Source: Rubellimicrobium arenae
GTDB taxonomy: Bacteria; Pseudomonadota; Alphaproteobacteria; Rhodobacterales; Rhodobacteraceae
DNA: 64,000 bases
Assembly: GCF_017916275.1 (NCBI RefSeq)
Contig: NZ_JAFMST010000003.1
Span: 248,001-312,000 of the forward strand
Direction of reading: 5' to 3'
The notes beneath the pieces were generated by a model that did no database searches, was not told the DNA's origin, and saw nothing but the letters and a program-made list of their open reading frames with translations. The position numbers were made by a program, and so were the translations under genes. This document shows, piece after piece, positions 9,952 to 23,281 of this stretch; positions within the stretch are counted from its first letter, which is position 1; each line of letters begins with the position of its first letter.

Positions 9952-10054
9952 GCGCCCGGCTCCGGCATTTTTCCCCTCGCTCCCGACCGCCCCCTCTGCT
10001 AGGAGGCGCGCCAGCCAGGGGGGGAGGGCGACGGCCCGCCTCCCGCATGACTTT

Positions 10055-10139
10055 GCGGGTGTGGCGGAACTGGCAGACGCACCGGATTTAGGTTCCGGCG
10101 CCGCAAGGCGTGGGGGTTCGAGTCCCTTCACCCGCACCA
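10055..10139 (+). tRNA. tRNA-Leu (anticodon UAG)
   Basis: An 85-nt class II tRNA with encoded CCA. The acceptor stem GCGGGTG / CACCCGC, the anticodon arm CCGGA-TTTAGGT-TCCGG giving anticodon TAG, an extra arm (CGCCGCAAGGCG) and the GGTTCGAGTCC T-arm are all seen. It lies 18 bp before tig and may share its transcript. Confidence 0.95.
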
Positions 10140-10157
10140 GGACGCGAGGATGAGGAT

Positions 10158-11483
10158 ATGCAAGTCACCGAGACGCTGAACGAGGGCCTGAAGCGCGGCT
10201 ACACCGTCACCGTCACCGCCGCCGAGCTTGACCAGAAGGTCCAGGCCAAGCTCTCCGAGATCCAGCCCCAGGTCGCCATGAAGGGCTTCCGTCAGGGCAA
10301 GGTCCCGATGGCGCTCCTGCGCAAGCAGCATGGTCCCCGCCTGATGGGCGAAGCCATGCAGGAGACCATCGACGGCGCGGTGAGCTCGCACCTCGAATCC
10401 AGCGGCGACCGGCCGGCCATGCAGCCTCAGGTCAAGATGACCAACGAGGACTGGAAGGAAGGCGACGACGTCGTCGTGGAAGTCGCCTACGAGAAGCTGC
10501 CCGACGTGCCCGCCGTGGACCTGTCCTCGGTCGCCCTCACCCGCCTGAACGTCAAGGCCGACGACGCTGCCGTCGATGAGGCCCTGTCGAACCTCGCCGA
10601 CACCGCCAAGACCTTCGAGGACAAGGACGGCGCGGCCGAGAACGGCGACCAGGTCACCATCGACTTCGTCGGCAAGGTCGACGGCGAAGCCTTCGAAGGC
10701 GGCTCCGCCGAGGACTACCCGCTCGTGCTCGGCTCGAACTCGTTCATCCCGGGCTTCGAGGACCAGCTCGTCGGCGTCACCGCCGGAGAGCAGAAGGACG
10801 TCAACGTCACCTTCCCGGCCGAATACGGCGCCTCGCACCTCGCCGGCAAGGACGCGGTCTTCACCTGCACCGTCAAGGCCGTGAAGGCCGCCAAGCCCGC
10901 AACCATCGACGACGAGCTGGCCAAGCGCTTCGGCGCCGATGACCTCGAAGCCCTGCGCACCCAGGTCCGCGAGCGTCTGGAGCAGGAGTATCAGGGCGCG
11001 GCCCGCGCCGTCGCCAAGCGCGCGCTCCTCGACGAGCTCGACAAGCTGGTCGATTTCGACCTGCCCCAGGGTCTTGTCGACGCCGAGGCGAGCCAGATCG
11101 CCCACCAGCTCTGGCACGAGGAAAACCCGCACGTCCACGGGCACAACCACGACCACATCGAGCCGACCGAGGAGCATCAGCGCCTGGCCAAGCGCCGCGT
11201 GAAGCTGGGCCTCCTGCTCGCCGACCTGGGCCAGAAGGCCGAGGTCAAGGTCACCGACGCCGAGCTGACCCAGGCCGTGCTCCAGCAGGCCCGCCAGTAC
11301 CGTGGCCAGGAGCGGCAGTTCTTCGAATACGTGCAGAACAACGCCGCCGCCCGCCAGCAGATCCAGGCCCCGATCTTCGAGGACAAGGTGATCGACCACA
11401 TCTTCGGCCAGGCCAAGGTCGAGGAGAAGGAGGTCTCCAAGGACGAGCTGCAGCAGGCCGTCGAGGCGCTCGACGAGGAATGA
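10158..11483 (+). CDS. tig: Trigger factor chaperone
   Basis: A 441-residue ribosome-associated chaperone and peptidyl-prolyl isomerase that meets nascent chains at the exit tunnel. The N-terminal ribosome-binding domain has the GFRQGKVP signature (about residues 44-51). The FKBP-type domain spans about 155-245 ([20 protein letters not shown]), and the rest is the helical C-terminal domain. A His-rich stretch HVHGHNHDH near residue 325 could bind metal. The start at 10158 follows GAGGATGAGG; the frame extends upstream into the tRNA, so an earlier start is excluded. A strong terminator follows. In most alphaproteobacteria tig precedes clpPX, but here a GNAT gene follows. Confidence 0.96.
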
Positions 11484-11504
11484 GGGCTCCGACCCGCTGA
11501 TCGG

Positions 11505-11530
11505 AAAGGCGCCCCTTGGGCGCCTTTTTC
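11505..11530 (+). terminator. Rho-independent terminator after tig
   Basis: AAGGCGCC / GGCGCC hairpin with a short loop is followed directly by TTTTTC, 22 bp after the tig stop. Confidence 0.88.
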
Positions 11531-11605
11531 GTTTCGGCCGGGGGTGCAGTCGGCCGTTGTGGTCCCCCGATGCGGCATGGCAGCCTGCGCGCGGCAAGAG
11601 ACTCA

Positions 11606-12211
11606 ATGGACCCTTCGATGGACAGCCTTTCCTTCCCGTACCGGCGCGCCACCCCCGACGACGCGGCCGCCCTGACCGACCTCGTGGACATCGCGGGCGA
11701 GGGGCTCGCCTCCTATCTTTGGGCCAGGCAGGTCCAGGAGGGCGAGACGCCGCAGGACGTGGGCCGCCGCCGCGCGCTGCGCGAGGAGGGGTCCTTCTCG
11801 TTCCGCAACGCGGTGGTCGCGGACGAGGGGCGCGGCGTGGTCGCCGCCCTGATCGGATATCCCCTGGCCAACGTGCCCGACCCGATCCCCGACGACTTTC
11901 CGCCCATGTTCGTGCCCTTGCAGGAGCTGGAGAACCTCGCCGCCGGGACCTGGTACGTCAATGCGCTGGCCGCCTACCCGGACCAGCGCGGACAAGGGCA
12001 CGGCACGGCCCTCCTTGGCATCGCCGAGGGGCTGGCCCGCGGCCTGGGCCGGCGCGGGGTCAGCATGATCGTCTCCGACGCCAACCCCCGGGCGGGGCGC
12101 CTTTACGAACGCTGCGGCTTCCGGGCCATCGAGTCCCGTCCGATGGTCAAGGAAACCTGGGACAATCCTGGCTCCACCTGGACCCTGATGATGAAGGAAT
12201 GGACCGACTGA
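11606..12211 (+). CDS. GNAT family N-acetyltransferase
   Basis: A 201-residue GNAT protein that should move an acetyl group from acetyl-CoA to an unknown amine. The acetyl-CoA binding motif A is seen as NALAAYPDQRGQGHGTALL at about residue 128-146 (Q/R-x-x-G-x-G). It is followed by the ISDANPRAGRLYERCGF-type segment that ends most GNAT folds. The start is either 11606 or 11618; I chose the first because AAGAG lies just upstream, but this is weak. It sits between the tig terminator and convergent cpdB, so it is probably a single-gene unit. A GC hairpin without a T-run follows at about 12222-12243. Confidence 0.82.
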   Translation: MDPSMDSLSFPYRRATPDDAAALTDLVDIAGEGLASYLWARQVQEGETPQDVGRRRALREEGSFSFRNAVVADEGRGVVAALIGYPLANVPDPIPDDFPPMFVPLQELENLAAGTWYVNALAAYPDQRGQGHGTALLGIAEGLARGLGRRGVSMIVSDANPRAGRLYERCGFRAIESRPMVKETWDNPGSTWTLMMKEWTD

Positions 12212-12249
12212 GCGGCAGCGCGAGGGGGCGGACGCGCGCCCCCGCCGCG

Positions 12250-14208
12250 TCAGAGCGCGATGCGGAAGCGGGCGAAGCCGTCCGGCCCTTCGCCCGCCGG
12301 CTCGATGCTGAGCCCGGCAACCTGGTCCAGGTAGTCGGCCGCCCGCGGCCCGGTGTCGAACAGCACCGTTGTCCCGGGCATCGCGGCAAAGCGCCAGTTG
12401 CCGTCCGCCGCCGGGTCGATGGTCCCCTGCTCCACGATATAGCGCACGATCACGTCGCGGTTGGTGTCCGGGGCCTCGAAGACGATGGTGGAGCCGTCCG
12501 CGCCGGGAAAGCTGCCGCCGCCTTCGGCCCGGTAGTTGTTCGTCGCGACGATGAACTCCTGCGCCGGATCGATCGGCTGGCCGTCGTAGGCCAGGTCCAC
12601 GATCCGGTTCGCGCCCTCGTTCACGAGGTTGCCGTCCGTGTCGAACCTGGACGGCTGCGACAGGTCGATCCGGTAGGTCACCCCGTCGATGACGTCGAAG
12701 TTGTAGGACCGGAAGTCCGGGTTCAGCAGCACCTGATCCTGCCCGCCCGGCGTGATCTGGTTGAACATTCCGGCTGACCGCTCCAGCCAGTCCTTGACCT
12801 GCGCCCCGGTGATCCGGACCGCGCGCACGGTGTTCGGGTAAAGATAAAGGTCTGCCACGTTGCGGATCGCGACGTCGCCCACGGGCACGTCGGTGTAGTA
12901 CTCGGGCCCGCCACGCCCGCCCGCCTTGAAGGGCGCCGCCGCCGACAGGATGGGGAGGCCCTCGTGCGGCGTGCCCTGCATCATCTGGGCGATGTACCAG
13001 GCCTGCGCGATCGACACGATCTGCACCGACGGATCATCGGCGACCAGCGCGAAGTAGCTGTGGAGCGGCGCCGAGGTCTTGCCGACCGGCCGGCGCACAT
13101 ACTCCAGCGTGGCCTCGTGCTCGGCCTCGACCGACGCGAGGACCTTGGGGTCGCTCTCGACGGTGGGCGTGGTGGCGCCCTCTTCGTCGCGGAGGTAGAT
13201 CGGCCGGGCCTCCACCTCGAACGAGGCGATGCGCCAGCCGTCGCCCTCGCGCTCGAGCAGAAGGTCCACCAGTCCCATATGGCTGCCCCAGAACCCGGCC
13301 ATCACGGCCGGCTTGCCGTGGATGGTGCCGCGGGCGGCATCGACGGCCTCGAAGCCCTCGTAGTCCGGTCCAGGCAGCACCAGGTGGGAATGCCCCGTCA
13401 GGATCACGTCGATCCCCTCCACGGCGGCGAGCGGGACCGCCGCGTTCTCCATCCCCGGCGTGGGCTGGGCGTCCCCGATCCCGGAATGGCAGAGCGCGAC
13501 GACGATCTGCGCCCCTTCGGCCTTCATCCGGGGCACCCAGGCCTGCGCCGCTTCGACGATGTCGCGCGTGGTGACCCGCCCTTCCAGGTTCTTGCGGTCC
13601 CATTCCATGATCTGCGGCGGCACGAAGCCGATCAGCCCGATCCGGATCGGATGCTCCTGGCCCGCGCCATCGGTCACCATGCGGTCAAGGATCACGTAGG
13701 GGGGCACCAGCGTCGTGTCCGCGTCGGGCGTCGCCCCCGGCGCGGTGACCACGTTGGCGCTGACGATCGGGTACTCCGCCCCCTCGACCGAGCGCATCAG
13801 GAAGTCGAGCCCGTAGTTGAACTCGTGGTTCCCGAAGGTCGATCCCTCGACGCCCAGCGTGTTCATCGCCGTGACGACCGGGTGCCGGTCGCCCTGGTTC
13901 ATGCCGCGATCGTAGGCGACATAGTCCCCGAGCGGGTTGCCCTGCAGGAAATCCCCGTTGTCGAGGAGGAGCGAGTTGGTCGACTCGGCCCGCACCGCGT
14001 TGATGAGCGAGGCGGTGCGCGCCAGCCCCACGGTGTCGAGAGGCTTGTCCGCGTAATAGTCGTAGGGAAACACGTGGACGTGGATGTCCGTGGTTTCCAT
14101 GATGCGGAGATGCGCCTGCCCCTCCTGCGCGCGGGCCGAGAAGGGGTGGAGCGCGATCAGGCTTCCGGTGGCGGCCATGAACCCGCGGCGGCTGAGTCGG
14201 ATGGGCAT
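12250..14208 (-). CDS. cpdB: Periplasmic 2',3'-cyclic-nucleotide phosphodiesterase / 3'-nucleotidase
   Basis: A 652-residue metallophosphatase that degrades 2',3'-cyclic nucleotides and 3'-nucleotides in the periplasm for nucleoside and phosphate scavenging. A twin-arginine signal (LSRRGFMAATGS, cut after ARA) shows Tat export. The calcineurin-like metal motifs are present in order: TTDIHVHV (about 39-46), LLDNGDFLQGNPLGDY, GNHEFNYGLDF and, later, CHSG and TGHSHLVLPG. The C-terminal 5'-nucleotidase domain starts near residue 370 and contains NNYRAEGGGSFPG. The length equals that of E. coli CpdB. It stands alone; its upstream gap to the rplI terminator (14209-14340) should hold the promoter. 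Confidence 0.93.
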   Translation of the reverse strand: MPIRLSRRGFMAATGSLIALHPFSARAQEGQAHLRIMETTDIHVHVFPYDYYADKPLDTVGLARTASLINAVRAESTNSLLLDNGDFLQGNPLGDYVAYDRGMNQGDRHPVVTAMNTLGVEGSTFGNHEFNYGLDFLMRSVEGAEYPIVSANVVTAPGATPDADTTLVPPYVILDRMVTDGAGQEHPIRIGLIGFVPPQIMEWDRKNLEGRVTTRDIVEAAQAWVPRMKAEGAQIVVALCHSGIGDAQPTPGMENAAVPLAAVEGIDVILTGHSHLVLPGPDYEGFEAVDAARGTIHGKPAVMAGFWGSHMGLVDLLLEREGDGWRIASFEVEARPIYLRDEEGATTPTVESDPKVLASVEAEHEATLEYVRRPVGKTSAPLHSYFALVADDPSVQIVSIAQAWYIAQMMQGTPHEGLPILSAAAPFKAGGRGGPEYYTDVPVGDVAIRNVADLYLYPNTVRAVRITGAQVKDWLERSAGMFNQITPGGQDQVLLNPDFRSYNFDVIDGVTYRIDLSQPSRFDTDGNLVNEGANRIVDLAYDGQPIDPAQEFIVATNNYRAEGGGSFPGADGSTIVFEAPDTNRDVIVRYIVEQGTIDPAADGNWRFAAMPGTTVLFDTGPRAADYLDQVAGLSIEPAGEGPDGFARFRIAL

Positions 14209-17764: not shown

Positions 17765-17998
17765 ATGAGCGACGTCGCCGATCGCGTGCGCAAGATCGTT
17801 GTGGAGCACCTTGGTGTCGAAGAGGAGAAGGTGACCGAGAACGCCTCCTTCATCGACGACCTGGGCGCTGACTCGCTCGACACCGTCGAGCTGGTCATGG
17901 CGTTCGAAGAAGAGTTCGGGATCGAGATCCCCGACGACGCCGCCGAAACCATCCAAACCTTCGGCGACGCGGTCAAGTTCATCTCCGAAGCCCAGTAA
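17765..17998 (+). CDS. acpP: Acyl carrier protein
   Basis: A 77-residue acidic helical protein that carries the growing fatty acid on a 4'-phosphopantetheine arm attached to Ser37 in [10 protein letters not shown]. The length and the [18 protein letters not shown] start are typical. It has its own promoter and a strong terminator, consistent with very high expression. In many relatives fabF follows directly; here two other genes (a ureohydrolase and an adenylation-acyltransferase fusion) lie between them. Confidence 0.98.
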
Positions 17999-18157: not shown

Positions 18158-19072
18158 ATGGCGACGCTGGGCACGATGTTCGGGGCAAAGGACGCCGCCA
18201 CCTTCATGGGGCTGCCCGGCTGGGACCGGGGGGCCGCCCCGGCCGTGCTGATCGGCGCGGACGGCTGCACCCCCTATCCCTCGGTGGGCTTCTATTGCGC
18301 GGGCGGCCCCGCCGCGATCCGCGCGGCCTCGGGGGACTTCGCGGGGTCGCTGGCCCATCATAACTTCGACATCGACGCCCCGGCCTTCGGGGACCGCCAT
18401 CCCGCCGACGCGGGCGACCTCCCCGTGCGCGAGGATGATCCGACGGGCAACCGGGTTTTGATCCGCGACATGGTGGCCCAGGTGCTGGCGCAGGGCGCGG
18501 TGCCGGTGCTCCTGGGCGGCGACGATTCCCTGCCGATTCCCATGCTCCAGGCGTTCGAAGGGCAGGGGCCGCTGACCATCCTCCAGATCGACGCCCATAT
18601 CGACTGGCGCGACGAGGTCGAGGGCGAGCGTTGGGGCCTGTCCTCGACCATGCGGCGCGCCTCCGAGATGCCGCAGGTCGAACGGATCATCCAGGTCGGC
18701 CAGCGCGGCATGGGCTCGGCCCGGCCCTCCGACGTGGAGGATGCCCTGCGCTGGGGCGTCCAGTTCGTTCCCGCCTCCCGCCCCGACCCGGTGGCCGAGG
18801 CGCTGGACCTCGTGCCCCCGGGCGCGCAGGTGGTGATCTGCTTCGACTGCGACGCGCTCGACCCGTCGATCATGCCCGGCGTGATCGGCCGCACGGCCGG
18901 CGGGCTGTCCTACAACCAGGCGCTGGCGATCGTGCGGGGGGTTCACCGCAAGGCGCGGCTGCGGGCCATGGACCTGGTGGAGTTCATGCCGTCCCGCGAC
19001 GTGGACGGACTTGGCGCCATGACCGCCGCGCAGTTGGTCGCCGCGGTGCTGGGGCTGCTGTCCCGCGCCTAG
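18158..19072 (+). CDS. Agmatinase/arginase (ureohydrolase) family protein with GGDDS in place of GGDHS
   Basis: A 304-residue member of the ureohydrolase fold, which hydrolyses guanidino compounds such as agmatine, arginine or guanidinobutyrate to urea. The dinuclear Mn centre motifs are seen as GGDDS (about 121-125), DAHID (about 145-149) and FDCDALDPSIMPG (near 230-242). In characterised enzymes the first motif is GGDHS, whose His binds Mn; here it is Asp, so substrate or activity may differ. The start at 18158 follows AGGGGGACAGGG. It is flanked by the acpP terminator and a 190-bp gap. I would not call it speB with confidence; it may belong to a distinct subfamily. Confidence 0.78.
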   Translation: MATLGTMFGAKDAATFMGLPGWDRGAAPAVLIGADGCTPYPSVGFYCAGGPAAIRAASGDFAGSLAHHNFDIDAPAFGDRHPADAGDLPVREDDPTGNRVLIRDMVAQVLAQGAVPVLLGGDDSLPIPMLQAFEGQGPLTILQIDAHIDWRDEVEGERWGLSSTMRRASEMPQVERIIQVGQRGMGSARPSDVEDALRWGVQFVPASRPDPVAEALDLVPPGAQVVICFDCDALDPSIMPGVIGRTAGGLSYNQALAIVRGVHRKARLRAMDLVEFMPSRDVDGLGAMTAAQLVAAVLGLLSRA

Positions 19073-19157: not shown

Positions 19158-19262
19158 CTTGGATACGACGTGCAGCCTGGTTCCTTTTGACGATTGTCAT
19201 CCCGACGCTCTGCGAGCCGCCCGCTGCGCACCTTCTGAACTTCAGCAGGTAAGGCACGGACA

Positions 19263-21917
19263 ATGCGGACCAAAATGCAGGACCAGGCATCGGAAGGGCT
19301 GGCGCCGCACGCTGCCTTCTGGACGTTCCCAGCCGCCTTCGCCGCATCGAGCGCCTTGATCGTCCCCGGCGTGGATGGCGCGGAGATCGTCACCTACGAT
19401 GACCTTTCCGCCCGGGCCGACCTCTGGCGCGAGCGGATCGTTGCCGCCTCCGGGCCGGAATCCGCCGCCCTCGTGGCCCTCGAATTCGAGACCTCGGTCG
19501 AGGCGATCGCCGCCTATGTGGGGGCCCTGCGCTCCGGCTGCCCGCTCCTCGTGATCGAACCCGGCCAGCTCGCGCAGCCCGGCCCGATCTCGCGCATCTA
19601 CGCGCCCGAGATCGTCCTGGGCCGCCGGGGCGGGCGCTTCGACCTCCAGGCAGCAGGCACGCCGTCGGGCGTTGCCGCGCACCCCGACCTCAAGCTGCTG
19701 CTGTCCACCTCGGGCAGCACCGGCGACCCCAAGCTCGTGCGGCTGTCCGCCCTCAACATCGACTCCAACGCCCGGGCGATCGCGGACTACCTGGCCATCC
19801 GCGCCACCGACCGGGCCGCGACCACGTTGCCGCTCTTCTACTCCTACGGGCTGTCGGTGCTGAACTCGCATCTGGCGGCCGGGGCGGCGCTGGTCCTCAC
19901 CGAGGACTCCGTCGCCGCGCCGGAGTTCTGGGCCACCTGCCGCGCGACCGGCGTCACCAGCCTGGCCTTCGTGCCCCACCAGTTCGAGCTGCTCGACGCG
20001 GGCCACTTCGCGCGGCTGCACCTTCCCAGCCTGCGGTACGTCACGCAGGCGGGCGGGCGGCTCGGCCCCGACCTCGCGCGGCGGGTGCGCGACCTGGGCC
20101 GCCAGTCCGGCTGGGATCTGGTCATCATGTACGGCCAGACCGAGGCCGCCCCGCGCATCGCCTATGTCCCGCCCGAGCTCCTGCCCGAGGCCGCCGACAC
20201 CATCGGCCGGGCCATCCCCGGCGGGCGGCTCCGCATCCTGGGCGAGGACGGCGCCGAGATCACGGCCCCCGGCCGGCAGGGCGAGCTGGTCTACGAAGGC
20301 CCCAACGTCATGATGGGCTACGCCGAGCGGCGCGAGGACCTGTCGCGCGGCAAGGAGGTGACCGAGCTTCGCACCGGCGACCTGGCCGAACGGACCGCCT
20401 CGGGGCTGTTCCGCATCGTGGGGCGCAGCAAGCGCTTCGTGAAGCTCTTCGGCCTGCGCCTCAGCCTCGACCAGATCGAGGCCCTGCTCGAACGCGAGGG
20501 CATCGCCGCCCGCGCCGTGGCGTCCGACGACCGGCTCGTGCTGCTCCACGCCCGGGCCGACCAGGGCCAGGCCGCCCGCTCGGCGGTGGCGCGGACCTAT
20601 GGGATCCCGATCGCGCAGGTCCATGCCGGCCACCTTGCCGAGACGCCGCTCCTGCCGTCCGGCAAGGTCGACCAGCGGGCGCTCGTGCGTCACGCGGCCG
20701 ACCTTCTGGCGCGCGAGGCGGCACGCCCGCAGAAGCGGCCCGACACCAGCCTTGCCGACGTCCTGCGGCAGGCCACCCGTTCCCCCGAGGTCGGACCCGC
20801 GGACAGCTTCGTCTCGCTCGGGGGCGACTCGCTCAGCTACCTCGAGATGCAGCTCGAGCTCGAGCAGCGGCTGGGCGCGGCCCCGGACGGCTGGGAGCGG
20901 ATGCCGCTCGGGGATCTCGAACGCCTCGCCACGCAGGGAACCCCCAAGCCGGGCCGGTCCCGGATCGGCATCGACGTGCCGCTCCGGCTCGGGGCGATTT
21001 CGATGGTCGTGGGGCAGCACGCCACGGACTACCCGCTGTTCGGCGGGACCTGGGCGCTCCTCCTCCTGATGGGCTTCACGCTGGGCCGCTTCCAGACGGA
21101 CCTGCTCCGCAACGGCGAGGCGCTGCGCTTCGGGCAACGGATGCTTTATCCGATCCTGCCGCTCTACGCCGTCCTGACAGCCGCCTATGCGGGGCTCCAT
21201 GGCGGCGTGCCGGACAGCTACATGGCCCTGCTGGGCAACTACCATGTCTGGACCGAATCCTCGGCGCTCGAGCCCTACTGGTTCGTCAGCCTTTACACCC
21301 AGGTCGTGCTGGTCGTCGGGCTCGCCTCTCTTCTTCCGCCCGTGCGGCGCGGGCTCGCGCGGCGGGCCTGGGCCTCGGTGGGGCTGGCCTACGCCGTCGC
21401 GATCGGGGTGCTCGGGACCGGGATCGCCGTCCTGGGCGGCCAGGGGCTGGAGAGCCTGCCCGTGCCCCATCACGCCGCCCGCGACATCCTGGTCTGCCTT
21501 CCGGTGGTCCTGCTGGGCTGGATGCTGCAATCCGCCCGGACGCCCGTGCAGCGGGTCGCCACGCTCCTGGCCGGGGTGGCGCTCTGGCTGGCGGTCGCAA
21601 GCCTGAACGGCGCGCCGGGGCCGCGCATCGTCCTTGCCGGGGCCATCCTCCTCCTGGCCTGGAGCCCCTCCATCCCGGCGCCCCGGCTCGTGGCGCGTCT
21701 GCTCCAGCAGCTCGCCTCGGTCACGCTCTTCGTCTACCTGCTCCACGTGATCGTGGTCAGCGTGGCGTCGCGGCTGCCGGTGGGCGACCTCCCGCGGCTG
21801 GTGTTCGCGCTGGTCCTGTCCTTTGCGCTGGGCGCCCTGGCCAAGGCCGGCTTCGACTGGCTGGAACGGCTGCCCCGGCCGGTCTGGACCCGGCCGCCGC
21901 GCCACAGCCACCCCTGA
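19263..21917 (+). CDS. Adenylation-carrier-membrane acyltransferase fusion protein (A-T-AT3)
   Basis: An 884-residue three-part protein. Part 1 (about 20-480) is an ANL-type adenylation domain: STSGSTGDPKL near 146, YGQTEAAPR near 290, RTGDLAER near 370, GRSKRFVKLFGLRLS near 390 and PSGKVDQ with the catalytic Lys near 467. Part 2 (about 495-560) is a phosphopantetheine carrier with SLGGDSLSYLEM. Part 3 (about 570-884) has some nine to ten membrane segments, an R-X10-H motif (RLGAISMVVGQH) and a late FVYLLHVIVV, as in acyltransferase-3 proteins. The core that usually holds the amino-binding Asp reads LFYSYGLS, closer to acyl or aryl acid ligases. Inference: it activates a carboxylic acid, holds it on its own carrier and transfers it across or within the membrane to an unknown acceptor. 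It has its own hairpin terminator. Confidence 0.8.
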   Translation: MRTKMQDQASEGLAPHAAFWTFPAAFAASSALIVPGVDGAEIVTYDDLSARADLWRERIVAASGPESAALVALEFETSVEAIAAYVGALRSGCPLLVIEPGQLAQPGPISRIYAPEIVLGRRGGRFDLQAAGTPSGVAAHPDLKLLLSTSGSTGDPKLVRLSALNIDSNARAIADYLAIRATDRAATTLPLFYSYGLSVLNSHLAAGAALVLTEDSVAAPEFWATCRATGVTSLAFVPHQFELLDAGHFARLHLPSLRYVTQAGGRLGPDLARRVRDLGRQSGWDLVIMYGQTEAAPRIAYVPPELLPEAADTIGRAIPGGRLRILGEDGAEITAPGRQGELVYEGPNVMMGYAERREDLSRGKEVTELRTGDLAERTASGLFRIVGRSKRFVKLFGLRLSLDQIEALLEREGIAARAVASDDRLVLLHARADQGQAARSAVARTYGIPIAQVHAGHLAETPLLPSGKVDQRALVRHAADLLAREAARPQKRPDTSLADVLRQATRSPEVGPADSFVSLGGDSLSYLEMQLELEQRLGAAPDGWERMPLGDLERLATQGTPKPGRSRIGIDVPLRLGAISMVVGQHATDYPLFGGTWALLLLMGFTLGRFQTDLLRNGEALRFGQRMLYPILPLYAVLTAAYAGLHGGVPDSYMALLGNYHVWTESSALEPYWFVSLYTQVVLVVGLASLLPPVRRGLARRAWASVGLAYAVAIGVLGTGIAVLGGQGLESLPVPHHAARDILVCLPVVLLGWMLQSARTPVQRVATLLAGVALWLAVASLNGAPGPRIVLAGAILLLAWSPSIPAPRLVARLLQQLASVTLFVYLLHVIVVSVASRLPVGDLPRLVFALVLSFALGALAKAGFDWLERLPRPVWTRPPRHSHP

Positions 21918-21928
21918 GCGGTCCAAAG

Positions 21929-21968
21929 GCGCAACGGGGGCCGTCCTCGGCGCCCGCCCCCGTTGCGC
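21929..21968 (+). terminator. Hairpin after the A-T-AT3 gene
   Basis: A perfect thirteen-base-pair stem GCGCAACGGGGGC / GCCCCCGTTGCGC begins 12 bp past the stop codon. No T-run follows, so termination is likely but not certain. Its 3' arm supplies the -35 box of fabF. Confidence 0.55.
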
Positions 21969-21991
21969 AGCCCTCGCCCCATCTGTATGAC
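21963..21991 (+). promoter_or_regulatory. Promoter of fabF
   Basis: TTGCGC, 17 bp, TATGAC, ending 30 bp before the fabF ATG. Confidence 0.62.
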
Positions 21992-22021
21992 CAGCCCGCA
22001 CAATCTGCGGGAGGACAGCGG

Positions 22022-23281
22022 ATGCGTCGTGTCGTCGTGACCGGGCTCGGGCTCGTGACCCCCTTGGCCGATGGGGTCGAGGAAACCTGGCGGCGTCTGC
22101 TGGCCGGCCAGTCCGGGGCGGACACCATCAAGCAGTTCGACGCCTCCCAGCTCGCCACCGACTACGCCTGCGAGGTCAAGCGCGGCGACGGGACCCAGGG
22201 GACGTTCAACCCCGACAAGTACCTCGAGCCCAAGGACCAGCGGAAGATCGACGACTTCATCCTGTACGGCATCGCCGCCGCGCAGCAGGCCGTCGAGGAT
22301 TCGGGCTGGGTTCCCCAGACCGACGAGGACCGCGCCCGCACCGGCGTCCTGATCGGGTCCGGCATCGGCGGCCTGAAAAGCATCGAGGCCACGACCCTCC
22401 TCATCAAGGAAAAGGGGCCGCGCCGCGTCTCTCCCTTCTTCATCCCGGGCGCGCTGATCAACCTGATCTCGGGCCAGGTCTCCATCCGCTACGGCTTCAA
22501 GGGGCCGAACCACTCGGTCGTGACGGCCTGCTCGACGGGCGCGCATGCGCTGGGCGACGCCGCCCGTCTCATCAAGTATGGCGCGGCGGACGTCATGGTC
22601 GCCGGCGGGGCCGAGGCCGCCATCTGCGAGATCGGGATCGCCGGCTTCAACGCCTGCAAGGCCCTGTCCACCAAGCGCAAGGACGACCCGACCAGGGCGT
22701 CCCGCCCCTATGACATCGACCGCGACGGCTTCGTGATGGGCGAAGGCTCGGGCATCGTCGTCCTCGAGGAGCTGGAGCACGCCCGCGCCCGCGGCGCCAA
22801 GATCTACGCCGAGGTGCTGGGCTACGGCCTGTCCGGCGACGCCCACCACATCACCGCCCCCTCCGAGGACGGCGACGGGGCCGAGCGGGCGATGCGCATG
22901 GCGCTCGAGGACGCCCGGCTGGCGCCCGCCGACATCGACTACATCAACGCCCACGGCACCAGCACGATGGCCGACGTCATCGAGCTCGCCGCCGTGGAGC
23001 GGCTCATGGGCAACGCGGCCTCCAAAGTCACGATGTCCTCGACCAAGTCGATGACCGGGCACCTCCTGGGGGCGGCGGGCGCGATCGAGTCGATCTTCTC
23101 GATCCTGGCGCTGCGCGACCAGATCTGCCCGCCGACGATCAACCTCGACACCCCCGCCGTCGAGACGCCGGTGGACCTCGCCCCGAACCAGGCCCGCCAC
23201 CGCGAGGTGAAGGTCGCCGTCAACAACTCCTTCGGCTTCGGCGGCACCAACGCCTCGCTCGTGCTCGGGGCGGCTCCGTGA
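22022..23281 (+). CDS. fabF: Beta-ketoacyl-ACP synthase II
   Basis: A 419-residue condensing enzyme that extends acyl-ACP with malonyl-ACP, including the temperature-dependent C16 to C18 step. The Cys-His-His triad is seen as TACSTGAH (Cys near 170), [13 protein letters not shown] and [10 protein letters not shown]. The C-terminal [14 protein letters not shown] closes the thiolase fold. The ATG follows GGGAGGACAGCGG. mltG starts 16 bp after its stop, so the two are likely one operon. Confidence 0.97.

Follow-up and report, generated by a model that had tools for sequence, protein, structure and literature searches.

What might a bacterium gain from an enzyme that joins the activation of an acid, its attachment to a carrier, and its transfer through a membrane in a single chain? 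The question is raised by a gene in a 64,000-nucleotide stretch of Rubellimicrobium arenae DNA (GCF_017916275.1, contig NZ_JAFMST010000003.1, positions 248,001 to 312,000), referred to here as the window. Its 884-residue product, the window protein, contains an adenylation (A) domain, a phosphopantetheine carrier (T) domain, and a membrane part of the acyltransferase-3 (AT3) type. We propose that this protein is a self-contained inner-membrane acyl-transfer synthetase and that the role of its family is most likely iron acquisition, a proposal that, taken whole, we hold about as firmly as its negation.

Domain Architecture and Substrate Pocket

The following features of the gene are used below (positions of the window; genomes and loci carry handles beginning with G and L).

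19263-21917, forward strand: A-T-AT3 gene, 884 aa plus stop, ATG start (list of open reading frames, Pfam)
19347-20702, forward strand: adenylation domain, about residues 29-480 (Pfam AMP-binding, core motifs, model)
19842-19844, forward strand: Ser194, replacing the Asp that anchors amino acids (alignment column; equivalence taken from the motif)
20154-20156, forward strand: Arg298, putative pocket residue (invariant in 71 of 71 homologs)
20751-20942, forward strand: carrier domain, approximate limits (Pfam PP-binding at residues 497-539)
20829-20831, forward strand: Ser523, carrier attachment residue (Ser in 71 of 71 aligned homologs)
20949-21914, forward strand: AT3 or transmembrane acyltransferase (TmAT) membrane domain, residues 563-884 (Pfam, model, structure alignment)
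20985-21020, forward strand: R575-X10-H586 motif (kept in 70 of 71 homologs; located in the first helix of the modeled membrane part)

That one chain holds activation, carrier, and membrane transfer functions had been read from the sequence alone, and this is borne out by the 884-aa open reading frame (ORF), its Pfam domains and motifs, and its modeled fold. AMP-binding (152 bits; cut-off 29.9) and PP-binding (24.6 bits; cut-off 20.8) are both matched. Core motifs A3, A5, A7, A8, and A10 of adenylation domains from acyl-CoA synthetases, nonribosomal peptide synthetases (NRPSs), and luciferases (ANL enzymes) are all present along with the fold, the motifs being STSGSTGDPK (148), YGQTE (290), TGD (371), GRSKRFVKLFGLR (387), and PSGKVD (465); the carrier motif is LGGDS with S523. 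The whole-chain AlphaFold model has a mean predicted local distance difference test score (pLDDT) of 90.1 and a predicted template modeling score (pTM) of 0.67, and the 50 rows shown from a fold search with this model are A and A-T structures. The ORF is a real gene: 10 of the 101 genomes first searched, its own included, hold a family member, in one case divided between two ORFs. On the minus strand, a 919-aa antisense ORF (19242-22001) spans the whole A-T-AT3 gene and is probably the ordinary shadow of a G+C-rich coding strand. Among the relatives scanned with Pfam, PP-binding also exceeds its cut-off in L010, L061, L064, L112, and L145, stands at 20.7 against the cut-off of 20.8 in L034, and has no match in L008, L009, L090, L096, L137, and L146.

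Assignment of the membrane part to AT3, also proposed in the sequence-only reading, is upheld by the R-X10-H motif and a modeled TmAT fold but not by the Pfam score, which at 27.2 bits (Acyl_transf_3, PF01757; E 2.6e-6) lies below the cut-off of 31. R575 and H586 are kept together in 70 of 71 homologs; the exception, L096 from Photobacterium sanctipauli (9977-12628), is a different protein that continues from a related A domain into a GDSL-lipase-like end in place of AT3. Modeled alone, residues 563-884 reach a pLDDT of 93.7 and a pTM of 0.91. Structural alignment of this model gave Z 14.3 over 273 residues at 4.5 Å with human HGSNAT and Z 10.4 with GWT1, the next row standing at 7.3; according to the aligner's own warning, helical bundles can reach a Z of about 13 by chance. 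Because a plain Foldseek search with the membrane domain returned nothing at E <= 0.001 (HGSNAT ranked 16th, E 0.83, probability 0.75), the claim of a TmAT fold rests on the second aligner together with the motif. HGSNAT and GWT1 are counted in one TmAT superfamily (PMC12423673). The model supports the prediction that the membrane part has a transmembrane acyltransferase fold.

Elsewhere in the family, Pfam places AT3 over its cut-off in L008, L009, L090, L112, L146, and a separate ORF of L010, below it in L034, L061, L064, and L137, and nowhere in L096 and L145. The window protein displays RxxxR (R622/R626) in place of the third-helix RxxR of AT3 proteins. Loss of RxxR was considered as a sign of a carrier donor and was dropped after the homologs had been counted: 40 of 59 have RxxR within domain residues 41-105, against 20.7 in shuffles.

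Pocket positions were taken from our own motif alignment, in NRPS numbering (235, 331). The A domain had been described as lacking the Asp that anchors amino acids, and the alignment agrees. Ser194 occupies this position, its equivalents in the 71 aligned homologs are Cys (42), Ser (28), and Ile (1), and the Asp at position 235 expected of an NRPS domain for α-amino acids is absent from the window protein and from every homolog. The missing Asp supports the further suggestion that the substrate is probably something other than an α-amino acid. Arg298, aligned with position 331, is kept in all 71 homologs, as are Y193, S198, A263, and M289, and pocket residues are largely alike between the clades of the family. 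These residues are consistent with an acid that would lack an α-amino group and carry a second anionic group. Among proteins of known structure, the nearest in sequence include NRPS modules (LgrA) and an oxalate-CoA ligase, which do not indicate the substrate.

Iron-Type Promoter Boxes and Ferric Importers

The case for an iron role begins in Actinomycetota. Fifty-five actinobacterial loci (50 of the best 80 contig loci, plus 5 picked from 30 listed plasmid rows) were compared with 36 other loci (30 contig and 6 plasmid). Intervals of 460 bp, often counted from where the match begins, with start codons of the analyst's choice, were scanned with an IdeR/DtxR consensus, allowing up to three mismatches; a plain scan came first, and 15 intervals at importer operons were added after the first IdeR scan. 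IdeR-type boxes were found in 34 of the 55 loci, 24 before the enzyme gene and 10 before an importer operon leading to it. Within the 1.14 Mb scanned, the intervals (32,069 bp) hold 39 boxes and the other 1,105,221 bp hold none, and 300 permuted palindromes gave a mean of 0.06 loci and a maximum of 7.

These genes also keep company with ferric importers. A SfuA-like binding protein is encoded within 7 kb of the enzyme gene in 37 of the 55 loci, and all three subunits of a SfuABC-type importer are present in 34 (21 of these have the binding-protein gene on the same strand as the enzyme gene), compared with 1 of the 36 other loci. The ATPase gene ends 2-12 bp ahead of the chosen enzyme start in 11 loci, and against Serratia SfuA the R. 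fascians binding protein (SfuA/YfuA/HitA family) reaches 449 bits. The box does not belong to the importer alone, given that 12 of the 18 loci lacking a binding protein still have one (6 of the 18 have less than 6.5 kb of sequence on a side). Of four loci with an annotated importer (R. gordoniae, R. fascians, M. chubuense, and R. pseudokoreensis), only that of R. gordoniae has a box at three or fewer mismatches, the others needing 4 or 5; the Pseudarthrobacter locus has a box and no annotated importer. On plasmids of Rhodococcus fascians (L036) and Mycolicibacterium chubuense (L118), the gene and importer lie near cadmium-transport and cation-ATPase genes, and L118 has arsenic genes as well.

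The importers bear directly on the chief rival to an iron-binding product, namely envelope remodeling without chelation. Here a lipid, a glycan, or peptidoglycan would be acylated, and the altered surface or metabolism would help iron-starved cells in some lineages. Its precedent is AimS of Acinetobacter, an AT3 protein of the iron-starvation response but a stand-alone one (PMC13345540, preprint), and the usual acceptors of AT3 proteins are extracytoplasmic sugars (PMC9558356). Three annotated alphaproteobacterial regions, moreover, name no siderophore transporter within 14 kb of the gene. Yet a change of surface alone hardly explains why a ferric importer accompanies the gene in 34 of 55 loci or why the gap is 2-12 bp in 11, and we regard this explanation as possible but doubtful. 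Envelope decoration, the purpose put forward in the sequence-only reading, is thus one of two plausible options; for the family as a whole, the newly recognized iron link has the better support.

A second promoter signal comes from Rhizobiales. Of 22 Rhizobiales loci (one of which is labeled Roseateles, in a record marked unverified), 16 carry TGAC-N8-TCA, a pattern set after the upstream regions had been read, 48-73 bp ahead of the start, and its density there is 21 times that in the rest of the loci. The pattern has the form of the iron-responsive operator (IRO) box of RirA printed for fhuA (PMC10510648). Since a −35 element can read TTGAC too, the RirA-type case is weaker than the IdeR case. 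In the Rhodobacterales of the rhizobial clade, L005 and L142 have the exact form, and L140 and L031 are one base off it.

Published expression data touch one rhizobial member. In the annotated S. meliloti region, the family gene lies three genes before ndk, which is SMc00595 (PMC2912261), so that its ortholog is probably SMc00592, identified by gene order rather than by sequence. SMc00592, a "hypothetical, transmembrane protein", appears in Table 2 of a study of a fadD mutant alongside hmu, fhu, and two iron ATP-binding cassette (ABC) binding-protein genes, with log2 changes of 1.47 (swarming vs broth, 14 h) and 1.30 (swarming vs hard agar, 7 h) (PMC2848241). These data concern swarming and not iron starvation itself; the authors count 17 iron genes, which may or may not include SMc00592. 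A zinc transporter is found near a Leisingera copy.

Family Distribution and the Window Clade

Extending the search to a wider draw of the bacterial family found a member in 14 of 394 genomes, the window's own included (E <= 1e-80), a count low enough to call the distribution patchy. Relatives at E <= 1e-50 occur in 100 plasmid records (Rhizobium 53, Leisingera 17, Rhodococcus 6, and others), 50 of which reach 80% coverage in one place; all 30 of the listed rows are annotated "AMP-binding protein", two with a second name. The contig loci are the best 80 of 567 candidates, the latter number being no count of the family since it takes in ordinary adenylating enzymes. Their titles name Alphaproteobacteria, Gammaproteobacteria, and Actinomycetota, and two are metagenome-assembled genomes titled "bacterium" and "Proteobacteria bacterium".

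Although known pathways split these steps, the window protein is not unique: its fused layout is that of a widespread family, and one relative has A-T and AT3 in neighboring ORFs. In that split version (G046; L135/L010), an AT3 ORF (92.6 bits) directly precedes the A-T ORF; an ORF labeled transposase-like from its reading lies further on. No characterized ortholog was found, nor was any description of this A-T-AT3 architecture, in a literature search limited to open-licence papers; one candidate paper (PMC12542777) proved to be unrelated.

Several members depart from the standard gene. The closest relative of the window protein, L002 (G004:C4, about 211069-213985; 65%), matches in two frames (query 16-830 and 717-880); its AT3 end may be frameshifted or misread, and the tail of its row is out of frame in the alignments. 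In the annotation of a Rhizobium sp. NXC14 plasmid, the gene (L121, 9923-12534) appears as a pair of overlapping ORFs, with the break near residue 410. The family match of L144 (G282) lies inside an open frame reported as 1416 aa, although reading of the fetched stretch met a stop. Two genomes hold two members each, L139/L145 in G184 and L140/L146 in G139. One set of loci used in the analysis (A3) omits L054, L090, L096, and nine plasmid rows.

A tree of 71 members was built by a quick method, with a midpoint root for drawing only. Forty-one actinobacterial rows fall on one side of a branch with support 100. A group of 17 (support 100) unites the Rhizobiales rows with four Rhodobacterales, L008, and a Marinobacterium, and a group of seven (support 95) consists of the window protein, L002, L037, L038, L003, L004, and L009.

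Several observations weigh against an iron role, both in the family and in this last clade. At up to three mismatches, 21 of the 55 actinobacterial loci have no box; outside Actinomycetota, the importer is confined to the single locus mentioned above. The loci are related, and box and importer counts are thus counts of loci and not of independent events. SfuA-type proteins are known for ferric iron and are not known to serve siderophores. Six of the 22 Rhizobiales loci have no RirA-type box at the settings used, and the exact form is absent from L006, L007, L031, L066, L086, L091, L139, L140, and L143 among the rhizobial-clade Rhodobacterales. The rhizobial siderophore mutants described so far are chrome azurol S (CAS)-negative, which speaks against a strong secreted chelator made by a gene of the SMc00592 type. 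The window clade is separate from both iron-boxed groups in the tree, at about 33-41% identity to them. Read by eye, the regions upstream of the window gene, L002, L003, L004, L009, L037, and L038 show no evident iron box, and the RirA form is absent upstream of L136-L138 (L137 and L138 are not in the tree). No importer lies beside the window gene, the nearest SfuA-like gene being about 81 kb away. Lastly, the iron-starvation-induced Acinetobacter AT3 protein acts with no change in cell metal content (PMC13345540, preprint).

Within the window's genome, the region upstream of hemP offered no motif transferable to the window gene, and the excerpt of PMC4618611 names the Iron-Rhodo-box of Rhodobacteraceae with no sequence given. 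The link of the window protein to iron is accordingly drawn from other clades with a similar pocket, its own clade showing no box; we infer that the window clade shares the iron role.

Genomic Setting

Four neighboring features are relevant to what the window gene may do locally.

17765-17998, forward strand: acpP (Pfam PP-binding; named from its place and reading)
18158-19072, forward strand: arginase-family gene (PF00491, 157 bits; missing at the equivalent place in G004)
21929-21968, forward strand: G+C-rich hairpin after the gene, no T tract (folding compared with shuffles)
22022-23281, forward strand: fabF (Pfam ketoacyl-synt)

The gene had been placed between acpP and fabF with a terminator of its own. 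Both neighbors are there, but the arginase-family gene separates acpP from the A-T-AT3 gene; in G004 (L002) the gene again lies between acpP and fabF, with acpP directly upstream and no arginase-family gene. As for the terminator, the hairpin downstream (z −2.0; 6 of 200 shuffles fold equally well) lacks a T tract and coincides with no site listed by a scan for terminator-like sites.

This setting lends itself to a different explanation, in which the window clade has its own role unrelated to iron, for example an acyl modification tied to fatty-acid synthesis, and only other clades serve iron. The position between acpP and fabF in both G000 and G004 and the lack of a visible iron box in the clade would fit, as would pocket differences at H239 (shared with part of the family), Q240, and P297. 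Against these stand a pocket otherwise much alike, R298 and Y193 included, and neighboring ORFs of G039, G028, G031, L037, and L038 that look different by eye. Other members of the window's genus (G002, G003, and G007) hold the rhizobial-type gene, which suggests replacement by an equivalent. We consider a separate role of this sort distinctly unlikely and retain a shared iron role as the preferred reading.

A polyamine acceptor was also entertained from neighboring genes: the arginase-family gene of the window, genes for an agmatine deiminase and a polyamine-binding protein on a plasmid of Roseateles sp. XES5, and a spermidine-synthase-like gene in Phyllobacterium. It was dropped because G004 has no arginase-family gene and the other annotated neighborhoods name no such enzyme. 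Further along the window, past fabF and a gene of the YceG/MltG family, lie genes for a terminase large subunit and a phage portal (25053-27800), an arrangement like the start of a Rhodobacterales gene-transfer-agent cluster.

Comparison with Known Systems and Proposed Mechanism

A close analogy in logic is the Dlt system, in which adenylation yields a carrier-bound acyl group that a membrane acyltransferase delivers to the outer face. D-alanine is the substrate, the steps are divided among the separate proteins DltA, DltC, DltB, and DltD, and DltB is an MBOAT rather than an AT3 protein. The window protein, in contrast, has all steps in one ORF, in which Pfam reports AT3 but no MBOAT at E <= 1; its A domain matches DltA only distantly (66 bits in one search and 48.7 bits in another). 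AlmEFG, which places glycine onto lipid A, likewise combines activation, carrier, and acyl transfer for a change of the envelope, but does so with three proteins, an amino-acid substrate, and a transferase of another family.

Epsilon-polylysine synthetase shares with the window protein an A-T unit followed by a membrane region, and it suggests a polymer-forming enzyme whose membrane domain would condense the activated acid repeatedly into a poly-acid. The layout and the self-sufficiency of a single gene agree with this idea. The membrane region of the window protein, however, is AT3/TmAT by motif and modeled fold, a family of single acyl transfers, and Pfam lists no condensation-like domain in it, so that polymer formation seems to us very improbable. 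With NRPS A-T didomains and ANL ligases (LgrA, THR1, HitB, and oxalyl-CoA synthetase), the window protein has in common the fold and motifs of A and T; it differs in having no condensation or thioesterase domain (Pfam), no amino-binding Asp, and an Arg aligned with residue 331.

With the AT3/TmAT superfamily (OafB, OatA, HGSNAT, and GWT1), it shares R-X10-H and a TmAT-like modeled fold. AT3 fusions named in the excerpted literature involve SGNH, alanine racemase, and NRF domains, and the donor is acyl-CoA (PMC9833829, PMC9558356, PMC12423673), whereas in the window protein the fused carrier would be the donor. A term search found "adenylat" and "acyl carrier" absent from PMC9558356, "AMP-binding" absent from PMC9833829, and "acyl carrier" and "AMP" absent from PMC12423673. 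In published descriptions, AT3 proteins admit acetyl-CoA to a pore, where its phosphopantetheine segment is mobile, and transfer is to an acceptor outside (PMC9833829, PMC9558356, PMC12423673). Since its attachment Ser is conserved, the fused carrier should bear a phosphopantetheine arm and therefore could replace CoA.

In the proposed mechanism, the A domain would use ATP to activate a carboxylic acid without an α-amino group, whose second anionic group would probably be held by Arg298, and the acyl group would be loaded onto the phosphopantetheine arm at Ser523. The arm would then enter the AT3/TmAT pore from the cytoplasmic side, like the phosphopantetheine of acyl-CoA in models of other AT3 proteins, and His586 would help to pass the acyl group on to an acceptor located on the outer face or outside it. 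The resulting acyl conjugate would bind iron, as a small chelator released from the cell or as a group on its surface, and would feed ferric iron to importers such as SfuABC. The analysis establishes the make-up of the domains, the conservation of catalytic residues, the modeled fold, the extent of the family, and the association of relatives with iron-type boxes and a ferric importer; we infer the acid substrate, the orientation, the acceptor, and the chelating product. A ferric-iron-binding product would account for both the regulation and the pairing with importers.

The boldest form of this proposal is a one-gene transmembrane siderophore synthetase, in which a metal-binding acid would be activated, carried, and joined to its acceptor during passage through the membrane, with no separate exporter and with iron returning via SfuABC-type importers. 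We think this form unlikely. If true, it would add a third siderophore route to multimodular NRPSs and NRPS-independent siderophore (NIS) synthetases, in at least Pseudomonadota and Actinomycetota.

Implications

Judging from promoter boxes, a large family annotated only as "AMP-binding protein" appears to belong to the response to iron starvation in two phyla, where the regulators are unrelated to each other. The proposal also implies that a fused carrier arm can feed an AT3 pore in place of acyl-CoA. A search for the substrate that would otherwise be blind becomes tractable through the regulatory link, since cells can be compared in the presence and absence of iron and of the gene. Should the product bind iron, the family would represent a compact chelator route that would be missed by genome mining based on NRPS condensation domains or NIS enzymes.

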